64,000 bases of DNA, from contig NZ_RJJW01000003.1 in assembly GCF_003781945.1 (NCBI RefSeq), positions 196,260 to 260,259 on the forward strand, read 5' to 3'. The stretch comes from Halorubrum sp. CSM-61. GTDB taxonomy: Archaea > Halobacteriota > Halobacteria > Halobacteriales > Haloferacaceae. A program made the position numbers and the translations under genes. Of the stretch, positions 739 through 31,057 are shown one piece after another. Below the pieces are notes generated by a model. The model saw only the letters and a program-made list of their open reading frames with translations, was not told the origin of the DNA and searched no databases. Numbering within the stretch: position 1 is the stretch's first letter; every line of letters begins with the position of its first letter.

Positions 739-2031
739 GTGACGCTCGATCCGATCCACGTCGAGAACATCGCGCAGCTCGCGTACGGCATCGCGGGCGA
801 CGTGGACGCGACCGATCACGACGACCTCGCGGGCCGGGTGTGGCGCGACTGGCTCCCCGAGCTCCGGCGCGACGGCCGGGTCGTGATCGAGCCCGTCGAC
901 GCACACGAGCGCCGGCGGGCCCCCGTCGACGACGCCGCCCTCACCGACCGCCCGTTCGAGACGGTCCACGGGCTCGACTCCGGCACGATCAACCCGACCA
1001 CCTTCAAGAACGGACTCGTCGTCGACGTGGCCCACGCCGCGATGGCGAGCGCGCCGAGCGACCTCGATCTCCACCGCGACCGGACGATCGTCGCGACCGT
1101 CCACGCCGGCGACTCGACCGCGAGCTTCGACGGCGAGTGGCGCTCGCGCGACGACGGCCACACCCGACAGCGCGTGCTTCACGCCCCCCGCGTGAACCGG
1201 TACGCCGAGGGGGTCGTCCACGCGCTCGCCTTGTACCTCGCCGAGGGGACCCACGCGCTCGACCACGCCGACGAGGTCGACGACCTGCTCGTCCTCGACG
1301 GGCCGATCTACCCGAAGGAGCTGTTCACGTGGGACGACCGCAACCCCGAACTGGGCGCGCTCGCACGGGAGGCGAAGCCCCGCGCCGTGGTCGAGAAGTA
1401 CGTCCGGCTCGTCGAGCGGTTCGTCGAGCGCGACGTGCCGCTGGCCGGCTTCGTGAAGAACCCCTCCAGCGGGACGATCGTCCGCGCGCTGACCCGGAAG
1501 GGCGTCGAGCCGCCGTGGCCCGACGACACGGCGCTTTTCACCCGGCTCTTGGAGCGTCGCGAGGGCGACGGCGAAGGCGGGGACGGAGGGTCCGGCGGCG
1601 ACGCCCCCGACGCCCGGTCCGAGCGCGTCGACGACGAGCTCACCTTCACCACGTGGTTTCACAGCCGGGGCGGCGCCGACGCGACGATGGCCGCCGACGG
1701 CGACGCCCTCGGGATCGAACGGGAGCTCGACCCGGAGCTGTACGAGCCGACGTTCATGGTCGTGTACGACCCCCGGACCGACGTGACCTACAAGCTGGAG
1801 GCGCCGTACGCGTTCGCCCGCGACGCCGAGACCCGCGACCGGCTCACCCGGCAGGTCCTCGCCGACGTGGCGACGACGCGGGGACCGCCGGAGGCGGTCG
1901 GCAAGGCGGACGAGCTGGCGCGGATCTCGGCGACGGAGAAGGCCGCGCTCCGCCGGAAGTTCGAGGAGCGCTTCGACAGCGACCAACAGGCGACGTACGA
2001 CGACCGGCGGTGGGGCAAGGAGCCGTATTAA
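739..2031 (+). CDS. nurA: DNA repair nuclease NurA
   Basis: 430 residues, GTG start chosen from the TATA box just upstream. The stretch HGLDSGTINPTTFKNG near residue 78, followed by VVDVAHAAM, is the N-terminal metal-binding core of haloarchaeal NurA proteins. A second conserved block is PIYPKELFTWDD near residue 192. NurA is a Mn-dependent 5'-3' nuclease that works with the HerA translocase and Mre11-Rad50 to resect double-strand breaks. HerA is not next to it here. A Gly/Asp-rich low-complexity insert lies near residues 277-296. The family call rests on motif memory; the function is from the family. Confidence 0.8.
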   Translation: MTLDPIHVENIAQLAYGIAGDVDATDHDDLAGRVWRDWLPELRRDGRVVIEPVDAHERRRAPVDDAALTDRPFETVHGLDSGTINPTTFKNGLVVDVAHAAMASAPSDLDLHRDRTIVATVHAGDSTASFDGEWRSRDDGHTRQRVLHAPRVNRYAEGVVHALALYLAEGTHALDHADEVDDLLVLDGPIYPKELFTWDDRNPELGALAREAKPRAVVEKYVRLVERFVERDVPLAGFVKNPSSGTIVRALTRKGVEPPWPDDTALFTRLLERREGDGEGGDGGSGGDAPDARSERVDDELTFTTWFHSRGGADATMAADGDALGIERELDPELYEPTFMVVYDPRTDVTYKLEAPYAFARDAETRDRLTRQVLADVATTRGPPEAVGKADELARISATEKAALRRKFEERFDSDQQATYDDRRWGKEPY

Positions 2032-2043
2032 ACGGCCCGTCGA

Positions 2044-2412
2044 CGCGGTCGGCGCGTGCCTGCGAGCGCCCCGTGGGCGCGAGTCAGCACGCGCGAGGGA
2101 GCCCGCGGCCGCCTCCGGCGGCCGCGGCGAGGTTGGGGAGGTGTGAGGTGCGGGGCGGTGCTGTGCGGGGTGGGACTCAAAGGGGCAACCGCGAGGGCGA
2201 AGCACGGCGCAGCAAGTACCGCAGCGAGGGAGCGATAGCGACCGAGCGAGGAACGCAGCAAGCCGCGCGAGCCCTCGCGGCTGGGGCTTTGGAGGGTTCA
2301 CCGTCGATCCGCAGCCGATCACTTATAGCCGAGCGGCTGGGGCTTTGGAGGTGTTCACCGCCGATCCACGGTAACCGACCACGTACAGCCGAGCGGCTGG
2401 GGCTTCGGGAGT
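2044..2412 (-). repeat. dispersed structured element, copy 1
   Basis: First of five copies; read on the minus strand it has the same order of boxes as the others. It holds CTCCAAAGCCCC, then stem 1 (2189-2198 pairs with 2271-2280), CCCCTTTGAGTCCC, a C-rich box, stem 2 (2103-2113 with 2117-2127, 11 pairs, 3-base loop) and stem 3 (2052-2059 with 2087-2094, inner arm 2066-2071 with 2075-2080). On its 5' side the GGCTGGGGCTT unit recurs three times at about 60-base spacing (2279, 2335, 2395). It lies between convergent nurA and the CPBP gene. It has no plausible protein-coding frame. Confidence 0.8.
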
Positions 2413-2436
2413 GGTCTCGTCAGCGTCGATCACGTC

Positions 2437-9920: not shown

Positions 9921-10025
9921 ACCGGAGAGTGGTCGCCCCAATTCAAAGGGGTTCCGGGGTCTCGTCGGATCGCTGAAGCGTGACTCCGATCGGCCGAAAC
10001 GCCGGTGGCACAACGCGTCCATCTG

Positions 10026-10336
10026 CGGTGGCGCGCGCCTCCGAGTGGCCGACAGGCCACGAGGAGCGCCGCGCGAGGGAGTCGGGCGGCCGGAGCGAAG
10101 CGGAGGGCGCCCGACGAGGTTGGGGAGGCGTGAGGCTGCGGTGCTGTGCGGTCGGGTGGGACTCAAAGGGGCAGTCGCGAGGACGAAGCACGACGACGGA
10201 AGCACCGCAGCGAGGGAGCGCCAGCGACCGAGCGAGGAGCGCAGCAAAGCGCGCGAGTCGTCGCGGCTGGGGCTTTGGAGGCGTTCACCGCCGATCCAGT
10301 ATCAACCACTTATAAGCGAGCGGCTGGGACTTCGGA
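10026..10336 (-). repeat. dispersed structured element, copy 2
   Basis: Minus-strand copy between the eIF2B-like gene and rpoF. Box CTCCAAAGCCCC is at about 10264-10279 and CCCCTTTGAGTCCC at about 10158-10172. Stem 1 is 10174-10184 with 10257-10267 (imperfect). Stem 2 is 10081-10088 with 10108-10115. Stem 3 is 10031-10074, with an inner arm GTGGCC at 10045 pairing with GGCCAC at 10055 and the same GA/GA internal step seen in other copies. Upstream on the minus strand a CTTATAAG box and a second, degenerate copy of the CCCAGCC unit are present. No protein-coding look. Confidence 0.8.
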
Positions 10337-12224: not shown

Positions 12225-12790
12225 CTGGTTAACGAGATCCGTTGAACCTTTTCAGACGCTCCCTCGTCCGGAACAACTGGTCGTTGAATGCCGGCTCTTG
12301 AGCGATGGCGGGAGTAGGTATAGCACGGTTCTGGGGTGGCCGTTTATAAGTTATCGAGTGGTGTTGCCAGCGGCTGTTTATAAGCGATCGACCACTCTGC
12401 GGTGAACAGCTTCAAAGCCCCAGCCGCTGCGGGCGGCGCACGCTCGCTGCGCGCCTCACTCGGTCGCTCACGGTGTTCGCTCCCTCGTTGCGGTGCTTAC
12501 GTCGCCTGCGCCGCCCGCAGCGGCTGCCCCTTTGAGTCCCACCCTCCCCGCACCGCAGCCTCACGCCTCCCCAGCCTCGTCGCTGGCGGCTGTCGCCGCC
12601 AGCGACTCCCTCGCGCGTGCTCCTCGCGCCCTGTGGGCGCTCGGAGGCACGCGCCACCGCACATCCATTTATAAGCAATCGTCGTCGTCACTCTCGGTCA
12701 TTTAAATACTCGATCACCGCCACCGATCTGCAATACTCACTCCCGAACTCGCTCACCGTTATTCCTGTGCTAACCACACGCTGACCGGTA
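12225..12790 (+). repeat. dispersed structured element, copy 3 (long form)
   Basis: Intergenic between convergent mptA and the TrmB gene. The 5' part (12225-12400) carries GTTTATAAG boxes near 12343 and 12375. The core has GGTGAAC at 12401, CAAAGCCCC, stem 1 12422-12440 with 12507-12525 (19 pairs without mismatch), CTGCCCCTTTGAGTCCC, a C-rich box, stem 2 12579-12590 with 12595-12606 (12 pairs) and stem 3 12613-12620 with 12647-12654 enclosing 12626-12631 with 12635-12640. TTTATAAGC at 12668 and an AT run (ATTTAAATA near 12701) follow. Similarity to copy 5 extends over the whole interval, including the flanks. Confidence 0.85.
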
Positions 12791-17335: not shown

Positions 17336-17893
17336 GATCGGATATATCGATACGGTGGTTCAGTCGTTTAGAAGTGATCGAGTGGCGTCGCTGGCGGCTA
17401 TCCACAAGTGAAAGGCGGTGCCGTGGAGGGGGGCCTCCAAAGCCCCAGTCGCTCGCTTATAAATGGTTGCTGATAAACCGTCGGTGAACCTCTCCAAAGC
17501 CCCAGCCGCGAGGACTCGCGCACCTCGCTGTGCTCCTCAGTCGCTCACTTCGTTCGCTCCCTGCGGTGCTTGCGTCGGTGTGCTTCGTCCTCGCGGCTGC
17601 CCCTTTGAGTCCCCCCGACCGCACCACCGGAAGACGTTCCTGCTCGCTTCGCTGCGCGGGCTGCGACTTCCGTACTCCCGCTCGCTCCCGGTGGTCGCTC
17701 GCGGGACCGCAACCGCGCCTCACACCTCCCCAGCCTCGTCGGTCGGCCGGAGAAACGCGGAGGCCGACCGACTCCAGCGAGGGACCTTCGGTCCCTCTGG
17801 CAGTCGGACGAAGCCCGACGACCTCGCGCATGCTGGCTCGCGGCCGCCGCACTGCTCTTTATAAGCGATCGTCGCTGTCGCTCGTAGCACGTT
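17336..17893 (+). repeat. dispersed structured element, copy 4 (longest core)
   Basis: Between convergent genes ending at 17332 and 17907. Two CTCCAAAGCCCCAG units occur (17435 and 17492). The second starts stem 1, 17504-17515 with 17587-17598 (12 pairs), extended by GCGCACC with GGTGTGC. The box CTGCCCCTTTGAGTCCC follows, then about 110 extra bases with further hairpins absent from other copies, the C-rich box, stem 2 17738-17748 with 17762-17772 (11 pairs) and GGGACC/GGTCCC at 17780-17794. The stem 3 region is degenerate. TTTATAAGCGATCG at 17857 closes it, as in copy 5. Confidence 0.82.
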
Positions 17894-30511: not shown

Positions 30512-31057
30512 ATCGGGATCTTTTGAAACCCTCTTCAGAGACGTTCTCGTCCGAAATAGTCGATCGCTGAAGCGGCCTTCTTGATCGATAGCGGGAGTGG
30601 ATATAGTACGTTGTGAGTGTGGTTGTTTATAAGCCGGATTGTGGTGTTGCTGTCGGCTGTTTATAAGCGATCGACTTCGCTCCGGAGGAGACCTCCAAAG
30701 CCCCAGCCGCTGGGGGCGGCGCACGCTCGCTGCGCTCCTCGGTCGCTCGTGTTACTCGCTCCCTGCGGTGCTTGGGTCGCCTGCGCCGCCCCCAGCGGCT
30801 GCCCCTTTGAGTCCCGCCCGTACCGCACAGCCTCACGCCTCCCCAGCCTCGCCGCTCGCTCCGCTCGCGGCGTCCCTCGCGCGGTGCTGCTCGGCCGCGA
30901 GGCGGCCTCGCAGGCACGCGCCGACCGCAACCGAATTTATAAGCGATCGTCGCCGTCGCTCACAGTCTTTTAAATATCGTCTCAACGCTGCCGATCTGCA
31001 ACATCCACTTCCGCTATCGCTCGCCGCGGTGGCTGTACTGACTGCACCCGGATCGGA
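30512..31057 (+). repeat. dispersed structured element, copy 5 (long form)
   Basis: Between convergent genes ending at 30509 and 31071. It aligns with copy 3 through 5' flank, core and 3' flank. TATA-like GTTTATAAG occurs near 30624 and 30658. Core: CTCCAAAGCCCC at 30692, stem 1 30705-30723 with 30782-30800 (19 pairs), CTGCCCCTTTGAGTCCC, C-rich box, a stem 2 at about 30850-30872 that is weak, and stem 3 30879-30887 with 30914-30921, enclosing 30893-30898 with 30902-30907 and the same TC/TC step as copy 3. TTTATAAGCGATCG at 30936 and TTTTAAATA follow. Confidence 0.85.

Follow-up and report, generated by a model that had tools for sequence, protein, structure and literature searches.

Dispersed repeats comparable to the element analysed here have been described in several systems. 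The Correia repeat enclosed elements of Neisseria are high-copy intergenic inverted repeats that carry their own promoters near their ends, can be inverted, and give RNA that can be processed (PMC10969869). ERIC and similar intergenic hairpin repeats are dispersed imperfect palindromes, and repeats of the ERIC type at gene 3' ends can affect transcripts (PMC10969869). The transposase-free elements of haloarchaea include MITEs, whose ends match a transposon, SMRs, whose ends match none and which show no duplication, and the PATEs (Haloquadratum) (PMC3119063). Finally, the intergenic repeats of halovirus HF2 are modules (58 bp and 29 bp) with repeated AT motifs that act as promoters; their TATA motif starts at -26 from the G at which transcription begins, and their BRE can be changed without loss of activity (PMC8707807).

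The window, i.e. the whole 64-kb stretch of DNA that was analysed, is haloarchaeal (G+C = 69%), in all likelihood from Halorubrum, and holds five copies of one element (c1 to c5), which resembles the Correia elements in being a high-copy intergenic inverted repeat with candidate promoters near its ends, the promoters here being read from spacing only. The GTP cyclohydrolase MptA adjoining c3 is 96-97% identical to that of H. saccharovorum, H. salsamenti and others. The copies are as follows:

c1, about 2020-2420, minus strand: tandem upstream modules and CTATAAG (2322); exact right box absent
c2, about 10015-10335, minus strand: CTTATAAG at 10309; right box absent
c3, 12299-12755, plus strand: the feature under study
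c4, about 17430-17870, plus strand: CTTATAAA at 17456; TTTATAAGCGATCG at 17858; contains additional inserted arms
c5, about 30582-30990, plus strand: left box present twice, right box once, followed by TTTAAATA; another sequence in place of GGTGAAC
30515..30533, plus strand: outer end of the IS6 type in degenerate form (GGGATCTTTTGAAACCCTC), to the left of c5

In the whole genome the 15-mer CTTTGAGTCCCACCC gave 177 matches with at most two mismatches, compared with 3 for the reversed control; the genome carries about 175 copies of the element. The parts of c3 are:

12299..12315, plus strand: left inner terminal inverted repeat TGAGCGATGGCGGGAGT (consensus TGATCGATAGCGGGAGT)
12343..12350, plus strand: distal left TATA-like box TTTATAAG, 34 bp ahead of the proximal box
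12377..12384, plus strand: proximal left TATA-like box TTTATAAG, 24 nt ahead of GGTGAAC (the first box of the preliminary description)
12401..12407, plus strand: GGTGAAC block, a possible plus-strand transcription start and also the 3' edge of the minus-strand structure
12413..12534, minus strand: hairpin H1 (CAAAG-GGG-CAGCCGC ... GCGGCTG-GGG-CTTTG on the minus strand), with variable covarying arms
12535..12578, minus strand: conserved purine-rich linker GGCTGGGGAGGCGTGAGGCTGCGGTGCGGGGAGGGTGGGACT
12579..12608, minus strand: hairpin H2 (GTCGCTGGCGGCGACAGCCGCCAGCGAC), one of a limited repertoire of interchangeable stems
12613..12655, minus strand: hairpin H3, with an invariant tandem GA/GA internal loop
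12668..12675, plus strand: right TATA-like box TTTATAAG(CAATCG) (the second box of the preliminary description)
12701..12708, minus strand: distal right AT box TTTAAATA (minus strand TATTTAAA), present in long-form copies
12739..12755, minus strand: right inner terminal inverted repeat ACTCCCGAACTCGCTCA

Two further motifs on the minus strand of c3, of the type GGAGGTGTTCACC and GGGGAGGTGTGAGG (12401-12417 and 12559-12578), resemble a Shine-Dalgarno sequence, the complement of the 16S 3' end. In c4 and in the copies L005, L008, L014, L026 and L027 the core has gained additional hairpin arms (e.g. CCAGAGGGACC...GGTCCCTCGCTGG), always at fixed junctions, and the H2 stems come from a limited repertoire that is common to unlinked copies, like swapped modules.

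The preliminary description of this locus took the element to carry its own TATA boxes at both ends, which holds for c3 and nearly for c4 and c5, while the right box is poor or absent in c1 and c2. The octamer TTTATAAG occurs 10 times in the 64-kb window, against 0.06 expected from shuffles, and 8 of these 10 sites lie within c3-c5 (12343, 12377, 12668, 17456 on the minus strand, 17858, 30626, 30660 and 30936); the other two (33895 and 38276) have no recognisable core adjoining them. Ahead of the core, the box is GTTTATAAG in c3 and c5, CTTATAAA in c4, CTTATAAG in c2 and CTATAAG in c1. After the last hairpin c3 has TTTATAAGCAATCG, c4 and c5 have TTTATAAGCGATCG, c2 has no box and c1 only TTTAATA, and TTTAAATA lies further 3' in c3 (12701) and c5 (30969). 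Genome-wide, an exact TTATAA lies left of the core in 51 of the 94 oriented copies of ordinary spacing, almost always at -38 or -35 (in a few copies at -41) from CAAAGCCCC, i.e. 26 or 23 nt ahead of GGTGAAC; in the remaining 43 the left boxes are degenerate, e.g. CTATAAG or GTACG. On the right, TTATAA stands beyond the last hairpin in 67 of about 104 copies. Conservation of the TATA columns is among the highest in the tandem modules, their entropy being 0.2-0.6 as compared with roughly 0.8-1.9 in the adjacent 24 columns. From one CAAAGCCCCAGCCGC module to the next (upstream of c1, c2 and c4, and in L001-L190) the distance is divisible by three in 98 of 102 cases (51, 54, 57, 60 ...).

The two statements on which the promoter reading was founded, i.e. 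that GGTGAAC is conserved in c1-c4 and that the first box has promoter spacing, were both borne out. The block is present in all four of these copies (c5 carries GGAGGAGA instead), and the box precedes GGTGAAC by 24 nt in c3 and by about 26 nt in c2 and c4. Measured to the first G of GGTGAAC, the common 26-nt class fits the spacing of the haloviral repeat promoters exactly (PMC8707807); in the leaderless genes of the home genome the TATA box lies 27-35 nt ahead of the start codon. Promoter activity of the boxes is plausible on this evidence, and in part of one genus they probably do work as promoters. In many copies the box is not the promoter of a neighbouring gene, because these copies lie between convergent genes. 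The box is palindromic and could drive transcription in either direction; a BRE comparison, which drew on only 28 gene promoters, favoured neither, and no A-rich BRE is recognisable at the boxes. On the folding strand (minus for c3) the left box lies downstream, and the proximal right box, a mere 20 nt or so from H3, leaves too little room for a transcript that includes the whole RNA; the distal right AT box (12701..12708) has the right spacing for a minus-strand transcript starting just ahead of H3.

As judged from comparison of the copies, the strand that folds is the minus strand of c3, opposite to that assumed in the preliminary description, as the wobble asymmetry, the purine-rich loops and the tandem-GA motif all place the fold there. 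The hairpin arms vary widely between copies with their complementarity kept, and 78% of the unpaired bases on the minus strand (c3 sense) are purines. G.U pairs outnumber A.C mismatches on this strand (12:1 in H3, 4:1 in H2 and, counted after register correction, 36:7 at the base of H1; 7:1 in H3 and 3:1 in H2 in other species), giving 62 wobble pairs and 11 A.C mismatches in total over the stems, although copies within one genome are related and the ratios are not independent events, and such an asymmetry does not separate RNA from single-stranded DNA. At one H1 position C-G, U.G and U-A occur 36, 15 and 15 times; the path from C-G through U.G to U-A has a G.U intermediate only on the minus strand (c3 sense).

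Compensatory changes in H3 exceeded both shuffled and slid controls, as a structured RNA would predict: its covariation was 0.324, compared with 0.139 +/- 0.010 after shuffling (0/500) and at most 0.10 after sliding. Such changes occur in 9 of the 17 H3 pairs, a count for which the structure was set by hand, RNAalifold having picked a shifted register for lower H3. The GA/GA internal loop is present in 35 of 38 cross-species H3 sequences. The minus-strand fold has a z-score of -7.5, although the fold of the plus strand, too, is far more stable than that of shuffled sequence (z -7.6), as for any inverted repeat. A leaderless plus-strand ORF (GTGAAC...CTTTGA) was considered and rejected, since its frame varies between copies and H1 lengths differ by single bases.

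We built a covariance model on the folding strand and searched same-genus and class genomes with it. The model matches every same-genus genome listed and, at class level, 102 of 391 genomes, some of which belong to other families and hold several to dozens of copies; several of the distant matches have E values no better than about 1e-4 to 1e-5. The elements of other genera and families retain CGAGGGA, GAGGCTGGGGAGGTGTGAGG and GGGACTGAAAGGGGC ... GGGGCTTTC, and the closing pair CAAAG/CTTTG of Halorubrum becomes GAAAG/CTTTC in them, i.e. both sides have changed. A TATA-like box was found in none of these relatives, either at the 5' side (0/18) or at the 3' side (0/16). Since the relatives keep the core without the boxes, the boxes do not define the element and are an addition of the Halorubrum lineage; boxes alone do not make the element an RNA gene. 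The claim of an autonomous RNA gene therefore survives only in part: the boxes are non-random and stand at a fixed promoter spacing, but a promoter conserved together with the RNA, as expected of an autonomous small-RNA gene, was not seen, because 43 of 94 home-genome copies have no exact box and related elements in other genera and families are boxless. Its autonomy is also doubtful because many copies lie inside nested layers of mobile DNA with IS6-type ends. Neither the window nor five distant loci matched Rfam at gathering score (the best permissive match was ASpks, 15 bits, E 3.2), and no paper on the element was found by sequence or topic in the open-access literature.

Sites between convergent genes are favoured: they hold 57 copies in the home genome, as compared with 14 at divergent and 35 at tandem gene pairs (convergent versus divergent p = 3e-7), while the window has as many convergent as divergent gene pairs (10 and 10). 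In the distant relatives the folding strand lies downstream of a gene read in the same direction in 14 of 18 cases; at tandem sites in Halorubrum it shows no co-directional preference with genes. The mptA/trmB site holds a copy in many Halorubrum species and a short empty spacer in others, and in H. aidingense (L042) the core at this site is inverted relative to c3.

About a third of the copies are long forms, delimited on both sides by TGATCGATAGCGGGAGT inverted repeats 420-530 bp apart, a 17-nt sequence with 125 genome matches compared with 2 for its control, and the best-conserved long-form ends stop sharply at this repeat. The outer flank E1 lies to the left of the core, as oriented in the preliminary description, in 16 copies and to the right in 13, and the core therefore occurs in both orientations. 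Outer ends of the type GGCTCTGTTGAAATCC gave 30 matches compared with 0 for the control and are carried by a resident IS6 transposase element (L199; NF033587, 148 bits); terminal inverted repeats matching this transposon are found in some long forms (L204, L121, L126 and the left end of c5), not in most copies. Sibling elements with other cargo have 8-bp duplications (8/8 in L203, 7/8 in L198, L200 and L212), whereas the target duplication is absent from the core-bearing L204. The ends of these siblings (on contigs C11, C22 and C23) enclose a lipoprotein-like gene, a membrane protein or nothing. The long forms are too short for a transposase (about 420-530 bp between the terminal repeats, about 650 bp as a whole, with no ORF kept), and no kilobase-size autonomous partner with the inner inverted repeats was present among the matches listed. 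From these ends we infer transposition of the core by IS6. The 229-kb contig C8 holds many IS6-type ends, and no core copy on it was among the matches listed; the core had no sequence match in the phage collection and two weak matches in the plasmid collection, and it looks chromosome-bound.

We consider it somewhat better than an even bet (probability about 0.55) that the feature is the Halorubrum form of a structured RNA element that haloarchaea carry at 3' ends, and that mobile DNA dispersed it in this genus and supplied the promoter-like boxes. The purine-rich strand (minus for c3) folds into H3-H2-linker-H1, and comparison shows that selection keeps this fold. To judge by its location, the element most likely acts as an RNA at gene 3' ends, where it would form a structured 3'-UTR or transcript end and buffer convergent genes from each other. 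In Halorubrum many copies would have been dispersed inside nested layers, consisting of an inner segment with the 17-nt repeats and IS6-type outer ends. The AT boxes belong to these layers; they probably drive transcription of one strand or of both but would be an add-on and not the source of the element's identity. More tentatively, and at somewhat less than even odds, the core may represent an undescribed haloarchaea-wide family of structured RNAs with dozens to about 200 copies per genome, a purine-rich linker, tandem-GA helices and interchangeable arms, situated at gene 3' ends, of which the Halorubrum form captured promoters and spread in IS6-type and inverting mobile layers.

The same data can be read in other ways. 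The element could be an autonomous small-RNA gene in which the left TATA box drives plus-strand transcription that starts at GGTGAAC. TTATAA does lie 26 or 23 nt ahead of GGTGAAC in most boxed copies and is conserved above neighbouring columns in the tandem modules, the spacing is that of mapped haloviral repeat promoters in which a BRE change is harmless (PMC8707807), and leaderless promoters of the home genome place TATA at 27-35 nt. We nevertheless regard this as unlikely, because on the plus strand the loops are pyrimidine-rich and A.C mismatches outnumber G.U pairs, and because the box is inexact in 43 of 94 copies and missing outside the genus. A passive miniature transposable element, in which hairpins and boxes serve only mobility or are leftovers with no RNA function, would account for the inner inverted repeats, the IS6-type outer ends, the siblings with 8-bp duplications, the two orientations relative to E1 (16 left, 13 right) and the copy number. 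It does not easily explain why the core keeps compensatory changes in other families, where these ends were not seen, why it is near-absent from the phage and plasmid collections and absent from C8 among the matches listed, why its wobble bias is strand-specific, or why occupancy of one site is patchy but common to many Halorubrum species, and we find it improbable.

Other alternatives concern the boxes alone. They could be sites for another DNA-binding protein, e.g. a transposase or nucleoid protein: CTTATAAG is palindromic and is repeated in tandem at intervals of 34 bp and 51-60 bp close to inverted repeats, there is no recognisable A-rich BRE, and spacing that is nearly always a multiple of three is odd for promoters. 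As the distance to GGTGAAC matches known promoters and a BRE is dispensable in the haloviral case (PMC8707807), we give this reading a low probability. That module spacing, divisible by three in 98 of 102, together with a minus-strand frame that repeatedly reads AAGALEVFTVDPQSTTYKR, could also mean that the TTATAA boxes encode Thr-Tyr-Lys within a short repetitive minus-strand ORF. Tests of codon position, synonymous change and stops led us to reject such an ORF: there was no codon-position signal (entropy 0.64, 0.72 and 0.70), the synonymous fraction of 0.25 was the lowest of the six frames, and 7 of 34 modules contained in-frame stops. Codons are thus a highly improbable source of the boxes.

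If the core is a real RNA family, it would be among the most abundant uncharacterised structured RNAs in archaea, situated mostly at gene 3' ends, and would bear on the poorly understood control of transcript ends in archaea; it would also show clearly how an RNA structure that already existed can acquire promoter-like boxes from mobile DNA. Compared with the Correia elements, the sequence is unrelated, the boxes are of the archaeal TATA type, the GC-rich core consists of several hairpins with strong covariation, relatives outside the genus keep that core without boxes, and gene 3' ends rather than 5' ends are favoured. It differs from ERIC in having several hairpins, interchangeable stems, the tandem-GA motif and a wobble bias on one strand. 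Whereas PATEs derive from IS605 types, the outer ends here are of the IS6 type and the core is a covarying structure. The HF2 repeats are without a hairpin core, and the phage collection yielded no sequence match to the element.
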